From: Capniomyces stellatus
Lineage: Eukaryota > Kickxellomycota > Harpellomycetes > Harpellales > Legeriomycetaceae
NCBI GenBank assembly: GCA_001661515.1
Contig: LUVW01000051.1
Span: forward strand, 1 to 48,063
Direction of reading: 5' to 3'
Length of the DNA: 48,063 bases
The translations under genes and the position numbers were made by a program. Below the pieces are notes generated by a model. It saw nothing but the letters and a program-made list of their open reading frames with translations, was not told the DNA's origin and ran no database searches. Of this stretch, positions 28,434 through 47,208 are shown one piece after another. The stretch's first letter is position 1. Every line of letters begins with the position of its first letter.

Positions 28434-29198
28434 TCACATGACCAATTGGCTTTCGCCGAGACCAGTTATGGCTTTAATCCAATCGACATAGCTATAGGCA
28501 CGAGTAAAGTAAGTCGCACTGTTTTTATATCCGCATGCCGTGTGATCAAAGTGAGAGTTGTTTAAAGACTTGGCAAAGCTTGAAATTCCCAGCAGAACCT
28601 TTTCACTTCCAGCAGATGCATATATTGGCACACCTGACTCTGGAATACATTGTGTTTTATTGTGACCACTGGCCATACACATCAGCTCTTGAGTGTCGTT
28701 TTCTGTGTAATGCGGATATATCATTTTGCAGACAGGGTCAGCTGGAGTAAAGGCCTGCATCTTGGATATCTTTGTTGGCTTAATGTCCTGTATTCCTATA
28801 GGCTCTTTTAGCACCACCAAAGCAACATTGTTTTCAACTTTTATTCCGCGCCTGTAGTTGTGGTGTTTTACAACTTTAGATACAGCCAGTCGGCCCAGGT
28901 TGCTATCTGTAGCCAAGGGTTTGTCTAAAGCTAGATAAATCTGATCCGAAGCTATACTCTTGCTGCCTTCTTCTAAACAGCTTGCTGATGTTAAGAATAC
29001 ATTATATGATATCAAAGCTCCTGCGCATATAGATTGCGAGTCGTTTGTGAAGTGCACGTTTAAGCCGTAGGCGCCAGTAAAGTTGGCTATGGGCGTTACA
29101 CCGTCTCTTTTAAAATAGGTATGCTCAGCATTCTTGCCGTTTATATTGGCAGTGTATTTAAACACCATTCCTAAAGTCAAGTAGTATAGGTTAAACAT
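28434..29198 (-). CDS. Trypsin-fold (S1) protein with broken catalytic triad
   Basis: 254 codons, intact from ATG to TAA. S1 landmarks are recognisable: ICAGALISYNVFLTSASC around the Cys42-Cys58 bridge, NNVALVVLKEPI at the Asp102 strand, MCMASG and CIPESGVPIYA at the Ser195 site, and a C-terminal helix YVDWIKAI. The catalytic residues are altered. The TAAHC histidine is replaced (TSASC), the DIAL aspartate is replaced (NNVAL), and GDSGGP has become PESGVP, so only the serine is kept and the oxyanion glycines are lost. The pairs of cysteines are retained, implying a folded secreted protein. No clear signal peptide is visible at the present start (MFNLYYLTLGMVF is short), so an upstream exon or a weak signal is possible. 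A catalytically inactive pseudoprotease is inferred. Confidence 0.82.
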   Translation of the reverse strand: MFNLYYLTLGMVFKYTANINGKNAEHTYFKRDGVTPIANFTGAYGLNVHFTNDSQSICAGALISYNVFLTSASCLEEGSKSIASDQIYLALDKPLATDSNLGRLAVSKVVKHHNYRRGIKVENNVALVVLKEPIGIQDIKPTKISKMQAFTPADPVCKMIYPHYTENDTQELMCMASGHNKTQCIPESGVPIYASAGSEKVLLGISSFAKSLNNSHFDHTACGYKNSATYFTRAYSYVDWIKAITGLGESQLVM

Positions 29199-30080
29199 CT
29201 TGTATGAATATATGCTGGCATATCCGAGTTGATCAACGTCTATCCAAAATTAAAATATTGGATTAGCAAATGTTAGCTTTACAGCTCTATCAGGTTATAT
29301 ATAAGAAAATGATGAGTATCTAGAACGCGATAAAACATAAAAATTTGTGTTAAGCAAATGTAAGAAAGCTATAATTCTTCACTTGTGTAGTTTTCATTAT
29401 AACCATATATAGCATCAGAGTATTGTCAATATATTGCTAATATCCAACTTGTGTGCCATTATTTAGCGCTTGGTAAGTGTGTTTTTCTTCACATGGAATA
29501 AAAATAGTAGTAATGAATTATAATTTGCTCTTAATTCAGAACTGGCTCTCGATTGATTTTGAAGTTTTATTGTTTAGTCTAAAAGTTCAATCAATTGGAC
29601 CAAAAGCCATTAACAGTTTTCGATCCATTTAAAAGCCCAAATTCAATTTCAACAAAAAAAAAGAACACCGATTCATATAAAATCAGTATTATTCCCATCT
29701 TCCTTCAGCCTGTACAAAGTTTTGTTTATGTTTGGACACATTATTTATTATACGTTGTATATTGTTTGTATTTGTATTTGTATTTGTATTTGCGTTTATA
29801 TTTGTATTTATATTTGCGTTTGTATTTATATTTATATTTGCGTTTGTATTTGTATTTATGTTTGTATTTAAAAACGGCTATGGAGTTACACTACTGGGAT
29901 TGTCGGTCTCTGATAACAAGCCTTATTTACGCTCAAGAATGCACTAAATAGCAATAATTTCCCAAATATAATGCTCCCAGACAAACCTAACTCTACTAAG
30001 ACCGTGCCACAGCGACGTAAAAGTCACAGATAAAAATTACTAGATGGGCTGTTTGTATATATAATCTCTTGACATTTTAA
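29199..30080. other. Intergenic with TTTGTA-type repeat
   Basis: No coding segment supported; the open frames at 29595-29951 are repeat translation. Confidence 0.5.
29762..29870. repeat. (TTTGTA/TTTATA/TTTGCG)n hexanucleotide repeat, about 18 units
   Basis: Interspersed variants with higher-order pattern: TTTGCG recurs every three to six units, suggesting an expanded compound unit. Confidence 0.92.
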
Positions 30081-31447: not shown

Positions 31448-31697
31448 CTTGAACAGATTAGTATAAATCCAAAACAAACTTTGATTTGATCAACATGAAA
31501 GAGAAAAAAAAAGGAGAATCATAAAAGGATGGAGAAAAAAAATGTCGATGAAGGAAGAAAAGAGCTTGATAAAGTAAAAAAAAAAAGTAGAGGCGTATTA
31601 ATACGCTTGTTCATGGCTTTTCGGAGACCCAGGTTTCATTTCGATACAACCTTTTAGACCTAGAATCTTCAAACTAATATAACAGGGGGAAAAAAAA
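31448..31697. promoter_or_regulatory. Upstream region of the acid phosphatase gene
   Basis: 250 bp, purine-rich near the start codon (GGGGGAAAAAAAAATG). No defined element recognised. Confidence 0.3.
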
Positions 31698-33083
31698 ATG
31701 TTGAAACTGTCAAAAACATACTTCATTCTGTCAACATACCTCTCGCTAGCTACCAAGTCAGCTTTGGCGCCGTTGAACAAGGTCACCGATGTCAACTCGC
31801 CATACTTCCATTGTCAGGCTGATTTCCCAAATACCGAAACGTACAAGCCATTAGCCGATAGCAGTTTGGTATTTACGCAGATTGTAATGAGGCATGGTGA
31901 TAGAGCTCCTAACTCGCACATACCAAATGACAATGTTGTCTGGGACGTGTGTGATGATATTGTTTACCAACCAAAGTACCAATCAGGCGCAAGTGGTGCT
32001 TTGTTTAAAGTGGAAACAACTTTCCCAGACCCTAGAGTAGTAAACCACACAGAGCACTTTTGGGCAGGAAACTGCGAGACAGTGCAGGTAACAAAGAAGG
32101 GTAAGATACAAATGCAGACTTTAGGTAACGAAATTAGAAAGATCTACGTGGACCAACTCAAGTTCCTTGATAAGGACTTGCTAGATGAAAATGTTGTCAA
32201 GATGAGAGCGAGCACGTTCTTGAGGGCACAGGTGTCAGCGGAGAACTTTATGATCGGCTTGTATCCACCAGACGAGTGCAATGTCAATGCGACAGTTTCC
32301 ATGACGCACTACCCCTTGGACACCGATTTTTTTTTTGCAAATGGGTTGGTGTGTCCAAGAATTGACCAGATAAGGCCGCTGATTAGAACCACGGAAGGGT
32401 TCCAGAGCTACTTCAACAGCTCGTATAGCGACATGGTTAGGTTAAATAAGATTTTCAAACTCAGCCCTCGTTCATTCGCTAATTCCACAATCACTCACTA
32501 CAAATTTGCAGACGCAATAATTCCCTTATTGTGCCACAACAAGCCATTGAGATGCGATTCAAACAATAATTGTATAACGCTTGAAGATGCCACAATAGCG
32601 TACAAGGGGGCAGTTTTTGAACATGCATACAACAAGAGACTAAACCCATATTCAAAGGAGATTTCTAGACTCGGAGTCACACCTTTTATAAACGAACTAA
32701 TGATTGAGATCCAAAAGAGTATTGACTTTGACATCGAAAAGCTATCCGGTAGTACCAGCTCCGCAACTCCACCACGCCTCAGTGTATATTCAGGTCACGA
32801 CGATACACTTAATGGAATCATGGGGTTGTTTGAAGCTTTGGACACATCGGTCTACTTCCCACCATACGCATCAAGCATTTTGTTTGAGGTATGGAGAAAC
32901 AACACTGAGAAAAAATACTACATCAGAGTCTTGTATAACGGCAAGGTGCTTGAGCTAGAGAAGCACGAAGCAACCAACAACACCTGGTGCGACCTTTCCA
33001 AGTGCGAATGGTCAAACTATAGTGGCTACCTGAAGAGCCTCTTTCCAAAAAATACCTACGAGGAGTGCAAACTTAAGGCGTGA
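31698..33083 (+). CDS. Secreted histidine acid phosphatase (histidine phosphatase superfamily, branch 2), 461 aa
   Basis: Hydrolyses phosphomonoesters (acid phosphatase/phytase class) through a phosphohistidine. Single exon, ATG to TGA. A signal peptide (MLKLSKTYFILSTYLSLATK) is followed by the active-site motif VMRHGDRAPNSHIP at about residue 65, with nucleophilic His and both Arg. The C-terminal proton donor motif is YSGHDDTLNGIMGLFEAL at about 370. Several NxS/T sequons and paired cysteines (CNVNATV, CDSNNNCITL) fit a secreted, glycosylated enzyme. Length matches the prostatic/lysosomal-type acid phosphatases and fungal homologues. Substrate preference cannot be read from sequence. The gene lies downstream of an unrelated exon set and is not clustered with phosphate transport genes. 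Confidence 0.93.
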   Translation: MLKLSKTYFILSTYLSLATKSALAPLNKVTDVNSPYFHCQADFPNTETYKPLADSSLVFTQIVMRHGDRAPNSHIPNDNVVWDVCDDIVYQPKYQSGASGALFKVETTFPDPRVVNHTEHFWAGNCETVQVTKKGKIQMQTLGNEIRKIYVDQLKFLDKDLLDENVVKMRASTFLRAQVSAENFMIGLYPPDECNVNATVSMTHYPLDTDFFFANGLVCPRIDQIRPLIRTTEGFQSYFNSSYSDMVRLNKIFKLSPRSFANSTITHYKFADAIIPLLCHNKPLRCDSNNNCITLEDATIAYKGAVFEHAYNKRLNPYSKEISRLGVTPFINELMIEIQKSIDFDIEKLSGSTSSATPPRLSVYSGHDDTLNGIMGLFEALDTSVYFPPYASSILFEVWRNNTEKKYYIRVLYNGKVLELEKHEATNNTWCDLSKCEWSNYSGYLKSLFPKNTYEECKLKA

Positions 33084-38307: not shown

Positions 38308-39974
38308 TGTTTATCCGCACCTTCCCCCCCTTTTTTTTTTCTATTCTTTTTTTTTCTCTTTCCCTCTTTTCTTTTTTCTACTCTCCTACTATCTCATACA
38401 TGTACATAATTTTCTTTGTTTTGTCCTTACTCCATGTAATTTTGATACTATATATACTTACTCCTCCTTTAATCCGTCTATACACGGCTCCTTCCAATTA
38501 CCCCAGTAAAGGCAAGGCCACCTTTACATTCTACTTGAACATGCTGCTAATATTGCTTCTCCACTTCAAACATAACAATCAATTAACCGTTCTGATCTAT
38601 ACATTTACCACTATTTTCTTTTTTTTCTTTCTTTTACTGGTACTTTTATTTTTTCCTTTACTACTTCTTTTTAATACATCCAACTAATAGATTGATCAGG
38701 CTAGTATTGATCATATTTCAATACATAAAACCATACTCTCGATATTTGGATTTTTCACATTGATTTGTATTAACGCTTGTATTAGATCATTTACAGATCA
38801 ATTCTACATATATTAACCTTGAGCGCTATTATTGATGTTGATATTACCCATAATTAGGCTGAACAACCACTATTTTTTTTATTTTTATTTGCTTTTTTTC
38901 TATTTCTTTAAGAAAATCAAATAAGTGAATTAATGTCGTATATCTGCGCGCTTTTTTAAAGCGCAAAATTGCAAATTTATATAGTAAAATTGTGGAGTTG
39001 CAAAATTTGGTATTAATTGCGCTTATTGCTTTAATTAGCTTTAATATCTTGCCCATGAGTGTTTTTCATTAAATCTAGCAAAATCAATTAATTAGCTTGT
39101 AATTTTTCTAGATTTAATCACAAGTGCCATACTTAATTAATATCAGTTAATAAACTAGAGAAAATGAATAGATAATACAACAGTATGTATGATCTAGGGT
39201 TAGAAAAAAAAAATTAACGTATATAGTTAGCGGATCAGTTATTATTAGGCCAGCGAGTAAATCAACAAAATCAACCATACTCTAATAGCTATTTTTAAAA
39301 TATATAGGTTAATCTCAATGTTGAGTCAATACAGATTAGATATCAGTTCTACCAGAGCTCGACTTCAACATTTGTATCCGGGAGTTTAAATAAGCCTGGG
39401 CATGCCGCACTCTCTATAAAATCTTGTAATAAAATCTGTGTATTTTTTTCCCCATCCCCTCCAATTACATATATATACATAAGTTTGTTTATACTTTACC
39501 TGTTTCAATTAAATAGAACTGATTTAAGCTTTTTACAGAAAAAAAAAAACCACCGTTCATTATAACCTTACAAATATAGTTAGAAAAGACAATAACATAT
39601 ATCCAAATACATTTCATCAAACTTTAGACATAGTGGTGTGCAATACATAGATCTACCCACTGCATCATATTATTTATATTTCGTTAGAAAAAAAGGAGGA
39701 ATGATAGCTGGGTGTTTATATTTTTGAGAAATATATACATACAGTTGAGTTTAGAGTTTCGCTTTTGAGTTTTTGAAAGCTATCGCAACAAGAGAACTGC
39801 CAGTACTAGTCTGTGTTGGTATTCAGAGGCAAAGCCAGGAATTAGATAGAGTTTTACTCAAAACACAAAAGGTCTTGGTTAAACACTGGTCTATTGGAAG
39901 AATAATCTGAACATTTTCAGTTGTAACTAAACCAATAGAAACAAGTACCACAGTAAAACTAATATACAGGAAGA
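38308..39974. other. Intergenic, pyrimidine-rich then plain
   Basis: Starts with long C/T tracts just after the stop codon (38320-38395). No coding segment, RNA gene or repeat recognised in the rest. The last 250 bp are the bHLH gene's upstream region. Confidence 0.5.
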
Positions 39975-41465
39975 ATGGACAGAAATTTCGATGATGGAAG
40001 CGAGTTTATCAATTTTGATCAAATGATGGAAAGTGAATATAACATGGCCCAATCTGGCTCAGACAAGGAGAGTCAAGGTCCACCAAAGAAGAAGAGACTA
40101 AATCACAACGAAATGGAAAGAAAGAGAAGATACAACCAGAAAAAAGTGCTTTTTGAACTCCGGGACTCTATACCAACATTGCAGTTTTCCAAGCCATCAA
40201 CAGTGCTGATAATGCAAAAGGCAAAGGACCACATAACCAATCTCTCAACAAATGTAAACGAGCTAGAGAACGAGATCAATACGCTTAGAAGGGAGTTGGC
40301 GCTGCTGGGGAAAGTAGTGCCAAGCTACAGCCAGCTAAAGAATGCCATGCCAGCAAAAATACAAATTCAGCCAATCAATGCATCAAGCAACAGTTCATAC
40401 ATGTACAGAAAGATAAAACAGTTGAACTGCAAGAAAAAGTCTCCAGCAAAGAACGATAGACCAGAAAACGCAGAATTGAAGAGCAAGGTGTTGGGGAGTG
40501 GAGGGTTTGAAGAAGGTGTGGCAGGCAGGGAGGCTGAGAGTAGTACAAAGAGCGGATTTGATGGTATCATATCACCAGAGATTCAAAAGTTGCTTGAGAT
40601 GAATTTTGAAGCGCCAAATATGGTAGGCAGCCAAGCAGGCAATATTGATGCAGCCAAGAACAAGATTGGAATAAGGAATAGCGTTGGAGGGATGTATAAC
40701 GAGGGGTTGGGCGAGTTTGGAGGGAACTGCACAGCGGTTACCAAACTAAACTCTGAGATATTTTTATGCGAGTCGGGCAGTTCGTTTTTGAGCAGAAATA
40801 GAGGTAGAGAGGGGATGGGCGAGATGGGGCTGAGCCAGAGCGCAAATGGAGCGGAGCCGACACAAAATATGTTAAACCGGGCAAACAGTAACAACCTGAT
40901 TAGAAGCCACGATATGATGCATAGTCAAAGCATGGTTGAAAACGAGACAAAGTTTAAAAGACAGAGGATGTTGATGGAAGACAGTTTGGATTTTTTGGGT
41001 GATGGTCGCGGATTGGAAAAGGTAGGATTTGAGTGTGGTGCTGAAGGGATGGACAAGGTGGGTGGGGGTGGACAGGCTGGGTACAGAAACATAGGTTTGA
41101 TTCCACAGCTGAATAATGGCATGTATTTAACGGCATCGGTGATAAACAATAACATGTCGTATATGGGAGGTGATGTGGCGTTGGGTGACTTTGAAACCAA
41201 GTCGGTGGAGATGAAAAGAGAGGGGGCAGGATCAGACCTTGGGCCAGCAGCAAGAAGAGGAGCAGTTGGGCTGAGTGAAGGCATGTCTATGTTCAATCCA
41301 GACCTGAAGATCCAGATGGATTTCCCAATGATATACGACGAACAGATGTTGACGCAGGCAATTGAACAGAACAACCGGATGCAAAGTTTTTTAAACCAAA
41401 AGGCCAAGAACGACCTTGGATTTGGAGAACTGTTGAATTATAACACCAACTCTGGGCTGTTTTAA
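39975..41465 (+). CDS. Myc/Max-like bHLH transcription factor, 496 aa
   Basis: Single exon. An acidic N-terminus is followed by a bHLH domain at about residues 38-95: basic region KKKRLNHNEMERKRRYNQKK, helix 1 VLFELRDSIPTL, loop with SKPSTV, helix 2 LIMQKAKDHITNLSTNVNEL. The helix runs on as a short heptad segment (ENEINTLRRELALLGK). The basic region carries His, Glu and Arg at the spacing H-x3-E-x3-R, which in known bHLH proteins specifies CACGTG E-boxes (group B). The loop-helix 2 start, KPSTVLIMQKAKDHI, resembles Myc. The remaining 370 residues are Gly/Asn/Met-rich with no domain seen, probably regulatory. The target genes are unknown. Confidence 0.86.
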   Translation: MDRNFDDGSEFINFDQMMESEYNMAQSGSDKESQGPPKKKRLNHNEMERKRRYNQKKVLFELRDSIPTLQFSKPSTVLIMQKAKDHITNLSTNVNELENEINTLRRELALLGKVVPSYSQLKNAMPAKIQIQPINASSNSSYMYRKIKQLNCKKKSPAKNDRPENAELKSKVLGSGGFEEGVAGREAESSTKSGFDGIISPEIQKLLEMNFEAPNMVGSQAGNIDAAKNKIGIRNSVGGMYNEGLGEFGGNCTAVTKLNSEIFLCESGSSFLSRNRGREGMGEMGLSQSANGAEPTQNMLNRANSNNLIRSHDMMHSQSMVENETKFKRQRMLMEDSLDFLGDGRGLEKVGFECGAEGMDKVGGGGQAGYRNIGLIPQLNNGMYLTASVINNNMSYMGGDVALGDFETKSVEMKREGAGSDLGPAARRGAVGLSEGMSMFNPDLKIQMDFPMIYDEQMLTQAIEQNNRMQSFLNQKAKNDLGFGELLNYNTNSGLF

Positions 41466-42453: not shown

Positions 42454-45400
42454 ATGAGTACAAAGACATGGCCACTGGACTTGATAAAAGACTTTTCGAC
42501 AAATCTGGGGCGCCATGATTTTACAGGAGCCAACAAAACAGCCTCGTTGGTAATGCAGGCAAGTGTAGAAGCAAATAAAGAGGAGAATTAGAAAGATAAT
42601 GTGTTTTTATTTGCCCAAAGAAATGGTGGGGTTAATGTAGAATGAAAATAGGGGAAGGAGGATAGAAATATAACGATAGGGTAAATGTTAATAGAGCCAT
42701 CCGTCGTTAGGGGGGTTAATGTTGAGACTAGTAAATGCAGAAACGAATTACTGTGGGTTTTTTTTCTTGACGCCTTGGAATTTACTCCAGCCAAATGTAA
42801 ATGGAATGATAATGGAGGCGATACGAATAAAGATAATGTGAATGTTGATAATGTGAATGTTGATAATGTGAATGTTGATAATGTGAATGTTGATAATGTG
42901 AATGTTGATAACATAAATGTGGAAGGTATAAATAAAGATAATGTGAATGTAGATAATATAAATGGAGAAATAAATATGGATAGTAATAGAAGGAATGCGA
43001 AATGTAATGTAATGAGAAAATAGGGGATATACAAGGTGTATAAGGGGGTGATGCAATCGATATATACGATACTGGAGGAGGTGAAGGATGAAATGCAGTT
43101 TTTGGCACAGGGTAAAGGGCAGTTGGAGATTGAGGGGATGCGAGGTATGGGGAAAAGCAATGAGGCGATAGTGGCAGGGGAGAGAACAAAGAGAAAGAAG
43201 TTGCTGATAATGCACAATTACTTGCAGTTTCTGGTGGGGTATATAGAGATACGGGAGGGGTTGGTGAGAGTGTACCACGAGATAGCGACAACAACACCAA
43301 TATTGGATTTCAAGAAGCTGCTGGGAATGATGAAGGAGAACACAAAGCTGCTGGTGGACACTTACAGGAGTAAGTACTGGAGGGTATTGTGGAGATTGCT
43401 GGGGGGAGAGCTTGAGGTGTTGACGCGGATATTGAGGCTTAGTAAGTACATAATAGAGCTGAACTATGTGGGGGCAGGATTGGAGGCGATAGCAGCAAAG
43501 AATGACTTGCAAGTGTGGAGGATGGACACAGAAGTGGCAAACAGCGATGAAGAAGAGAAAGAGAGTAAAAGTAATAGTAAAAGTAATAGTAAAAGTAATA
43601 GTAAAAGTAATAGTAAAAGTAAAAGAACGAGTAATAGTAAAAGTAAAAGTAAAGATAAATTAAAAGAAAAGAAAAGAGAAAATATTAAAGAAAGAAATTA
43701 TGACGATGAAACGAATAATAAAGAAATTAGTAAAAGTAGTGATGGAAAATTAAGTGAGGTTGAGGATAAAGGGGATGAAAAGAAAAAGGTTCGATTTTCC
43801 CGAGATGCGGCTGGAGAAAAAGAAGGGGAATTAATAAGGGCAGAAAAGGCAGAAAAGGCAGAAAAGGCAGAAAAGGCAGAAAAGACAGAAAAGACAGAGA
43901 CATTATCATCAAAAGCAACAAATTTGTTTGGGGGGTGGCTGGTAAATTCGGTACAAAGTCTGTGGAAACGGAATGAAGTGGAGGAGAGCAGCAGTGAACT
44001 GATGATGATGCAGACGCCAAGCCAGCATAACAGGATATTTCCGTTTCTGCAGAGGTGGTATGAAAGTTTGGTGATAAAAAGTATGATATACTTTGAGGGT
44101 CAATTATTGGCGTTTTCAAGCGCCTTGGCAACAACACATACTTACAGCTCTGCAGATATATACAGAGTGGCGGAAGAGTGTGGGTACAGCAGAATGAAGT
44201 ACTCAACAGGGCTACTAAGGATATGGAAGAGCATCCCAAGCGACAGAAATTATTTTGAAATGGTCAAAACAACTTGTGAGGCTGTTGGTGCTATTTGCAT
44301 AGCCCTGATTTACGAGCCTGGAAACGATCTTTTGTTTTATCCCGCTGGAAATAACGCATTTAAGGCTAATTACCCTAAAAATATGTTCAAAGTTGCTGGC
44401 TGTGCAGTTCTGAGTTACTACAATGAAAATATGCTTGACGATTCCCCATTTAATTCCGAATCTGAATCTGAATCTGAATCTGAATCTGAATCTGAATCTG
44501 AATCTGAATCTAAATCTGAATCTAAATCTAAATCTATATCTAAATCTAAATCTAAATCTAAATCTAAATCTAAATCTGAATCTAAATTTGATTCTGAATT
44601 TGATTCTGAATCTGATTCTGAATCTGAATCCGAGTCTGAATCCAGTTCCAGTTCCAGTTCCGAGTACAGTCTTGATTCTGGTTCAGTTAAAAGTCAGAGT
44701 GATGGTGGTGCGGTTGGCAAATTGAATGCTTTGGATTTTGAATCAGCCAAAGCAGTCAGGAAACACAATTCAAGCTTTCCCAACTCTTTGGTCGAGTCAG
44801 ATAAAAACGACAATAGTATTTTAAGCTCCATTAGTACCACAAAACCTATCAAAGAAGATATTAGAAAATCAACCAAATCCAAATCTAAATCCAAATCGAA
44901 TACTAAAAAGACTACCAAAAGCAGTTCAAGTAATAGAATGAAAATAGGTAGAGTTCATGAATACTCGGATATTCATCAACCAAAACCTGTAAAACCAGGC
45001 CATGTCCAGCACAGGAATAAAAGCTCAACAGACAGTGTAGTTGGTAATGCAGCCAGTAACAAGAGCAGAAGCTCAGGTAAAAACGAAAAGAGTGTTGATT
45101 GGTTTAGACAAAGCTATCTGCCCGATATTTTAGGCGCAATGATGGAGATGCAGGAGGAGCTTGACGAGGAGTTGGGGGTGATGGTCAATAACAGGTTCAA
45201 CAAGCGCATAGTGACACCAAACTACGTTCCCATATCCAAAACCAATACGGGGTCAAGTGCAGTTGATGGCAGATCCAATGATAATTTAACCTCAAACTTC
45301 AATTATCACACCAACAGCGACAGCAGCAACAATTACAGCAGCAACAAAACCAAGCAAGCAAACTCAACAATCAAGCCATTAGCCAATCCAGAGGCTTCAA

Positions 45401-47208
45401 TGAATTATCACCCATCAACAGCAAACATCCCAAATGGAAATCAACCCGAAAACCAATCCCAATTTGGAAATGAAGTTAGAAATGAAAATAACCATGAAAA
45501 TGAGAACCAAAACGAAAACATTTCGAGTCTGTACAACATTTACTCGCAAAAGCCGCACCTCAGACAAAGAAAAGCAGCTACGCAAGAGGAAAAATCAGCG
45601 TCATACACAAACTTGGTTCAACTAGGTTCACCAAAGAACAACCCCAAGAACACTGCGATTTACAAAGACAGCAATAGCGTGTCAAGAGACAAGGGCAGTA
45701 ATTATTTATTGTCGTCGAATCAAAACAGCAACGAAAAGCATGCTAAAAAGACCGGAATGCTCAAGGGGTATAGCAAGCTATTTAACAAGAGTAAAACCTT
45801 GAAAGAAGAGGATCAGTTTGAAACCGATGATGTCAATTTAAACGCTGATTTAAACACCAATTTGAATTTAAATTTAAATACTAATTCCAACTTAAATACC
45901 AATTCCAATGATAATCATGGTGGCAATCATGGTGATAAATTCGGTGGTAAATCCACGAATACAACTAAAAGTAACAAAAACAATAAAACCGAATTGACAA
46001 GCAGCCTTTTGGATAGCAATGCTAGTGGAGTTGGCATAGATGTTGATAGTGATTCGGTTGGCGCAAGAAACGAAAGAGAAGGCAAAGGTGGAGATTGGAA
46101 GGGAATTACAGGATATTTTAGCAAATTGACAAGCCTCAAATCAACACCACCAACAACGACAACGACACCAACGGGGTCACCGATGATGGCACCAAACACC
46201 AAACGATTGTCAAATATGGAAGTTGTGAATGGTGGTAATAGTAATGGTAGTGCAGTAGTGGGGCCGGAAGCCAAGCCTGTGAACATAGGAGATATTGTTG
46301 TGGATTATGTAGGAAATGTGATAACAAGCAGGCTTATTGGGATAAACAGGAGCGAATCAAACGCCAGCATGAATTCAAATGCACGGAGCGAGAGTGTGGG
46401 AGTAGGAAGTAGAAGCCAGCAAAAGCCAAAAGCGAGTATTCACCCTAACCAGTATTTAAAGGCGAAACAGAGCCAAAACATCAACAATAGTGCGAATTTA
46501 AGTGTAAATCATGGTAGTGGAGTGTCAAGTAAAGAAAAGGTAGCCAATTTTAAAAGAAACATAAACAAGTCGCCATTAGTAGTGACAAAGAAGGCAAGCA
46601 ATATAGTGTACTTGATGAGTCGAGTTGAGTATCCAAACTTTACGCTGGTTGCTGTGGCCAACAGAGACAGGATCAAGACAGGACCAAGAAGCAGAAATGG
46701 TGGTGGTAGCGCTGAAAAGGTCCGGAATGACAGGAGTGGTAGGAGTAGCAGGAGTGGTAGGAGTGATGAGGCTGGTGGAGGCAAGGGGATGAGTAAGGGG
46801 ATGGGCAAGAGGAGCAGCGAGGCAAGTGTAGCAGAGCATGGCAGTGTAAGCAGTTTGGGCGGTTTGAGCGGTTTAAAAGGGGTTGGTGGGAAGGAAAGAT
46901 CGGTTAAACTGAGCAACAGTAATAGTTACTTTAGTTTGAACAGTGCAAACAGTAGTAGCAGCAACGTCAACTTTGGAGTTGGTACTGGAGTTGGAGTTGG
47001 TAAAAGTGATTTGGTTGGAGGTGAGCTGGTTGGAGAGAGTGGTGTAAAGGGAAGTGATGCGGGTATGGGTGGTGGTGGTGGCGGTGGTGGCGGTTTGGAT
47101 GGTGATGCGGATATTGATTATGGAATGGATGGGGTTGGCAAGCAGTGGATGGAATTGGTTGATTTGGTTAGAGGTGCCAAACTGTGGAATGATTTGAACA
47201 GCAATTAA
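42454..47208 (+). CDS. KICS2: KICS2 (C12orf66)-like KICSTOR subunit, greatly enlarged by low-complexity inserts
   Basis: In animals KICSTOR (KPTN, ITFG2, C12orf66/KICS2, SZT2) tethers GATOR1 to the lysosome so that TORC1 senses amino-acid lack. Exon 1 is 42454-42549 ([20 protein letters not shown]) and matches the family start (FFSHLG-type). A middle exon lies within 42685-43000 ([18 protein letters not shown], equivalent to the WLSLLAALAHLA region). The main exon 43024-47208 is open for 1394 codons. Family landmarks in order: [100 protein letters not shown]; at the C-side [20 protein letters not shown] and [17 protein letters not shown]. Inserts of Ser/Lys, Glu/Lys/Ala, Ser/Glu, Asn and Gly triple the usual 445-residue length. 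The borders of the middle exon are uncertain. The homology call is from remembered landmarks only. Confidence 0.72.
42833..42923 (+). repeat. 15-base tandem repeat coding VNVDN
   Basis: Five to six units of GTGAATGTTGATAAT in the middle exon of the KICS2-like gene. Every unit offers a weak GTGAAT/GTTGAT donor, which makes the exon end ambiguous. Confidence 0.9.
43559..43660 (+). repeat. (AGTAAAAGTAAT)n coding repeat, SK/SN
   Basis: A 12-base unit and its 6-base sub-unit, in the main exon of the KICS2-like gene. Confidence 0.9.
43836..43903 (+). repeat. (GCAGAAAAG)n coding repeat, AEK
   Basis: Seven nine-base units changing to ACAGAAAAG at the end; predicted to form a single alpha-helix-like charged stretch. 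Confidence 0.9.
44452..44667 (+). repeat. (TCTGAA/TCTAAA)n coding repeat, SE then SK
   Basis: About 35 hexanucleotide units. One base change separates acidic SE blocks from basic SK blocks, so the tract alternates acidic, basic, acidic. Confidence 0.95.

Follow-up and report, generated by a model that had tools for sequence, protein, structure and literature searches.

The gene at positions 42454–47208 on the + strand of a 48,063-nucleotide stretch of Capniomyces stellatus DNA (contig LUVW01000051.1, assembly GCA_001661515.1; the whole stretch is called the window below) is, with a probability that we put at about four in five, an orthologue of KICS2 (C12orf66) from the order Harpellales. Its product would comprise approximately 1430–1500 residues through low-complexity inserts between the KICS2-like blocks and would most likely act as KICS2 does in animals. 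KICS2 is a subunit of KICSTOR, an animal-type growth brake that is missing from baker's yeast. The assignment draws on KICS2-like blocks that stand in order within an open reading frame, for which the sequence support is real but modest, and on genes for ITFG2, probably SZT2, GATOR1 and Rag-family GTPases in the same genome. In this context a KICS2 gene is likely to be present, and this is a main reason for our confidence.

KICS2-like blocks in the main coding frame

The main coding frame is a stop-to-stop frame of 1394 codons plus stop (43024–47208, +; stop at 47206–47208), in which complex stretches alternate with low-complexity tracts. Pieces of it were compared with a hidden Markov model (HMM) of vertebrate KICS2, using 2000 shuffles per piece. 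This profile is vertebrate-only and narrow, its 30 sequences being drawn from the matches of a human KICS2 search (120 of 237 listed, the named ones vertebrate). The pieces were picked after the resemblance had been seen, and the shuffle numbers are therefore optimistic.

None of the 2000 shuffles scored as well as the helical KICS2-like core (43033–43554, +). Within this core, a block of 37 residues (43408–43518) corresponds to profile positions 190–226 and was the top ungapped match when the whole frame was scanned without selection. The second KICS2-like piece (43906–44442, +) was equalled by 25 of 2000 shuffles, and its FLQRWYES part lies at profile positions 246–278; on visual inspection, helices and strands follow one another in this piece as they do in KICS2. 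A C-terminal strand block (PNFTLVAV; 46564–46689, +), resembling KICS2 TYFLTRPEPHFTIVII, was equalled by 2 of 2000 shuffles at profile positions 391–409 and scored 24.1 in HHalign at positions 397–411. All three pieces align best at the collinear positions expected for KICS2 (189–227, 246–278 and 391–409). The unselected scan listed 15 matches, among which FLQRWYES ranked 4th, PNFTLVAV 7th and LFGG 13th, all collinear with the best block. The order of blocks is that of KICS2 (PF09404; human KICSTOR subunit 2, PDB 9v6e and 9o5a; also 2gnx), namely a helical region with an ELEVL...LQxW segment, followed by a helix and then by a PxFTxV strand. The block at 43408–43518 is the decisive one; the FLQRWYES and PNFTLVAV blocks stand in order but are weak.

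The original prediction had recognised KICS2 landmarks in order along the whole length of the protein. The middle section, FLQRWYES and PNFTLVAV are collinear; the landmarks at the N terminus, including IYTIL, and at the C terminus are not significant. The DFSTNLG motif of the probable first exon resembles LETFFSHLG of KICS2 by eye, with 599 of 2000 shuffles scoring as well, and the first 60 residues of the main frame, including IYTIL, were equalled by 377 of 2000. A possible C-terminal helix of KICS2 (47113–47205, +) was assigned by position and look; neither for it nor for a piece at 45091–45246 was a match to the vertebrate KICS2 HMM reported.

Further observations on single pieces do not support KICS2. 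The other 11 of the 15 matches listed in the unselected scan lie off the diagonal, several of them in low-complexity tracts. The YFEM stretch, which ranked third and belongs to the second piece, fits best at profile positions 33–54 and would be expected near position 300. The tail block alone scored 28.6, below the mean of 33.1 for 60 shuffles of the tail, and was not significant in the scan of the whole tail.

Profile comparisons of the joined core

The complex stretches were spliced together with the inserts removed, yielding a joined core of 540 residues. When this core was compared with the Pfam set of 24,736 families, PF09404 (C12orf66_like) was the only family listed (12.1 bits, expectation value (E) 0.078). 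The same holds for a 353-residue join of the two main pieces (13.2 bits, E 0.034) and for a 236-residue join representing the N-terminal half (10.8 bits, E 0.18). With the helical piece alone, PF09404 (11.9 bits, E 0.089) was accompanied by a viral family (E 0.16), both being weak.

Alignment of the joined core with the 30 vertebrate KICS2 sequences in HHalign gave a score of 32.4 (probability 13%, E 0.0021), core residues 188–303 matching profile positions 193–280. All 389 controls scored lower, the maxima being 25.0 for RPB2 tiles (n = 60), 21.6 for tiles of the SZT2 frame (n = 29), 26.6 for 150 shuffles of the core and 26.0 for 150 shuffles of the later pieces. In a separate run, 100 shuffles reached at most 22.8 and the reversed core 15.5. 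Removal of the helical piece reduced the HHalign score to only 18.7, yet the match remained in the right place (249–280). The vertebrate HMM scored the joined core at 10.3 bits, as compared to 3.8 bits for the best of 1000 shuffles, and a 357-residue join at 9.2 bits, which was equalled by 1 of 5000 shuffles. BLASTP against human KICS2 returned 25 bits over 202 columns with 21% identity.

Other comparisons weigh against the assignment. All PF09404 scores (10.8–13.2 bits) are below the curated cut-off of 22 bits, so that the protein is not a member by Pfam's rule; human KICS2, the positive control, reached 861 bits. The uncut frame matched no Pfam family at E 0.1, and none was listed for the second piece, the tail block or a join lacking the helical piece. 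A 470-residue piece that keeps an insert returned four other families, led by Cwf_Cwc_15 (E 0.007), with PF09404 absent from the list; we take these four for low-complexity matches. Against the vertebrate HMM, the uncut frame ranked second of 1288 frames with an insignificant 3.9 bits. A chain test allowing free inserts across the whole frame failed to set it above 16 chunks taken from other frames; with the four settings used, 44, 5, 3 and 11 of 200 shuffles did as well. The automatic low-complexity mask removed a third of the best block and led to −0.2 bits, a value that exceeds all 34 natural control tiles but is surpassed by several of 2000 shuffles, the best of which reached 8.3. In a MAFFT alignment with the insert kept, the middle aligned to KICS2 and the FLQRWYES piece did not.

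When the genome was searched with PF09404 and with human KICS2 as queries, neither gave a match, and the locus itself was missed. With the joined core as query, 7995 protein candidates that shared most words with it and had 0.55–1.75 times its length included no relative at E 1; such a search could miss distant or longer relatives, and Smittium and Furculomyces are therefore not shown to be without the gene. In the PDB, the helical piece had no match at E 10, nor had the second piece or the 353-residue join, and the whole frame retrieved two unrelated chains. The single-sequence AlphaFold model of the helical piece had a predicted local distance difference test (pLDDT) value of 53.5, and Foldseek found no match to it at E 0.001 and no KICS2 among the best 50 of 433. 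The corresponding model of the second piece was of low confidence (pLDDT 39.4) and consists of helices followed by three strands. Made from single sequences, both models are poor and say little about the fold.

These results might be read to mean that the gene has no relation to KICS2 and encodes a helical protein that evolves fast and carries low-complexity tracts, the likeness being due to chance and to the selection of pieces. Such a view accommodates the PF09404 scores under the cut-off, the lack of anything significant with inserts kept, the failure of the automatic mask, the displaced YFEM stretch and the choice of pieces after the likeness had been noticed. Against it stand the 389 of 389 lower HHalign controls, several blocks in the correct order, a core that lists no other family, and a genome that contains ITFG2, a probable SZT2 and DEPDC5, and we regard it as unlikely. 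The identification as KICS2 made in the original prediction is thus retained as an orthology that is probable, with a Pfam score that stays under the family threshold.

KICSTOR and GATOR1 genes in the same genome

The genome searches covered the same assembly (24.51 Mb in 59 contigs). Its RPB2 is 85% identical to that of Furculomyces boomerangus, Smittium simulii and S. megazygosporum, 84% to S. culicis and approximately 76% to Coemansia (among the best 120 of 6412 matches). By the RPB2 sequence, the origin of the window from a harpellid fungus (Kickxellomycotina) is confirmed, in agreement with the probable fungus of the original prediction. The window has a content of guanine plus cytosine (GC) of 35.9%; Harpellales genomes are given as 26–37% GC and 25–102 Mb in size (PMC5954228).

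ITFG2 was found as two collinear pieces in one frame of 2794 codons (contig C57:282781–291162; PF15907, E 4.9e-22), and in the reverse check only two PDB sequences were matched at E 0.01, both ITFG2. A frame of 8232 codons (contig C57:946096–970791) matches SZT2 in two pieces that are collinear, with E values of 5.4e-4 and 0.157. The reverse search matched three PDB sequences at E 0.01, all of them SZT2 (7.9e-4 to 0.0038), with no individual stretch reaching the threshold by itself. These matches make the presence of SZT2 probable. All three GATOR1 subunits were detected (DEPDC5, E 1.6e-89; NPRL2, E 1.5e-25; NPRL3, E 1.1e-23), as were Rag-family GTPases (E 6.6e-24). Human KPTN, used as query in the genome search, gave no match; a positive control was lacking and absence is therefore unproven. 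Of the partners for which the original prediction proposed a search of this genome, ITFG2 is thus clear, SZT2 probable and KPTN not found. An FG-GAP match (contig C30:227405–227581) was considered as KPTN and rejected, since by eye it reads like a secreted protein of the ITFG1/TIP type.

NPRL3 and the probable SZT2 are located approximately 30 kb apart (contig C57:913994–970791), with ITFG2 on the same contig, an arrangement that may be due to chance.

Reading frame, exons and inserts

The original prediction placed the gene at 42454–47208. The ATG at 42454 and the landmarks named there (43060–43092, 44044–44085, 46606–46668 and 47146–47205) are indeed all in frame on the + strand, although they do not belong to one continuous frame. 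Downstream of the ATG, in-frame stops occur between 42589 and 42684 and at 43021–43023, and therefore at least one intron is needed. The probable first exon (42454–42549, +) is open from the ATG and ends at GTAATG, with alternative donors up to 42563. The TAG at 43021–43023, directly preceding the main frame, is usable as a 3' splice site. The intron region (42550–43023, +) contains splice-like sites and stops, and a single GT-AG intron spanning it (GTAATG...AATAG) would preserve the frame and result in a protein of 1426 residues. A possible second exon begins at about 42741 and runs into a 15-base tandem repeat (42832–42957); it had no significant match to the KICS2 profile (389 of 2000 shuffles as good).

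Several of the low-complexity tracts of the main frame are tandem repeats of 6, 9, 12, 15, 18 or 24 bases. One insert (43564–43898, +) is situated within the KICS2-like core and is composed of SNSK and EKA tandem repeats with units of 6, 12, 24 and 9 bases. A long, probably disordered insert with tandem repeats (44458–46563, +) precedes the strand block; by eye, it starts with an SESE/KSKS tract (44458–44642), the remainder being rich in Asn and Ser.

The extent of these inserts allows the view that the gene derives from KICS2 and is now in decay or serves another function, repeat growth having broken up the KICS2 fold. The entropy mask keeps 326 of 1394 residues of the main frame, an insert is found inside the core, and conservation is weak, as seen from the identity to human KICS2. 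Against this, the frame has stayed intact over 1394 codons, even though growing repeats readily cause frameshifts. Moreover, ITFG2, SZT2 and DEPDC5 also reside in very long open frames in which the domains are still recognisable, and such frames are therefore usual in this genome. The frames of SZT2, ITFG2 and DEPDC5 (8232, 2794 and 4889 codons, the latter at contig C14:10308–24974) far exceed the human proteins (SZT2 3432 and ITFG2 447 residues, PDB chains), and the entropy mask keeps 2617, 649 and 1206 residues, respectively. The RPB2 frame, with 1242 codons, is of normal length. In view of this, we consider decay or a change of function highly improbable, and the inserts of the KICS2 orthologue are presumably tolerated rather than functional.

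Proposed role and comparison with known systems

In animal KICSTOR, KICS2 pairs with SZT2 and ITFG2 with KPTN (PMC11836306). By analogy, the harpellid KICS2 would hold SZT2 and, together with ITFG2, would build a KICSTOR-type scaffold. This scaffold would put GATOR1 (DEPDC5-NPRL2-NPRL3) on the vacuole, where it would turn off the Rag GTPases, and hence TORC1, under amino-acid scarcity. Action at the fungal vacuole is transposed here from the animal system.

A more far-reaching version of this scheme assigns a role to the enlargement itself. In it, the KICSTOR-GATOR1 brake of Harpellales (KICS2, ITFG2, SZT2, DEPDC5) would be jointly swollen by disordered inserts and work without KPTN, GATOR1 being tethered via flexible, possibly condensate-forming scaffolds as opposed to the compact animal complex. 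We deem this very unlikely and prefer a KICS2 orthologue acting in the manner of its animal counterpart.

The harpellid protein shares with human KICS2 the presence of partner genes in its genome. It differs in its length (445 residues in human versus approximately 1430–1500), in an identity of about 20% and in falling below the Pfam cut-off.

KICSTOR has been reported in non-Dikarya fungi, against a 2017 statement of its absence from fungi (Barua et al. 2025, PMC11836306). The inference made in the original prediction, that KICSTOR is older than the animal-fungus split and was lost in Dikarya, agrees with what is set out there (Barua, Plecha and Muszewska 2025, PMC11836306) and hence is not new. 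As in the fungi of that study, an early-diverging fungus here has KICSTOR genes alongside those for GATOR1 and Rag. The same source counts Kickxellomycota among the phyla in which at least one KICSTOR subunit is missing (PMC11836306); in the one harpellid genome considered here, three of the four are present, KICS2 and SZT2 as probable members, and their frames are very long. Its main text contains no occurrence of Harpellales or Smittium, which its supplementary tables may include. Among the papers listed in literature searches, this study was the only directly relevant one and none dealt with KICSTOR in Harpellales, with the same reservation that the supplementary tables of PMC11836306 may cover them. 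New here is the harpellid case with its hugely enlarged KICSTOR and DEPDC5 frames, early-fungal KICSTOR itself having been published in 2025.

If the assignment is correct, a further fungus retains an animal-type TORC1 brake, one that lives in the insect gut and belongs to an order for which the loss of many conserved genes has been described. It also suggests why such genes escape detection, the inserts pushing a probable subunit under the profile cut-offs. Surveys in which Kickxellomycota and similar lineages are reported to lack KICSTOR subunits may consequently undercount.

Other genes in the window

Directly upstream of the KICS2-like gene, a frame at 39963–41465 contains a helix-loop-helix DNA-binding domain (PF00010, E 9.3e-10). 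A histidine phosphatase frame (31683–33083; PF00328, E 1e-29) has a start that by eye is like a signal peptide. Finally, a trypsin-like serine protease is encoded in this insect-gut fungus by a frame on the − strand (28434–29249; PF00089, E 2.1e-11).

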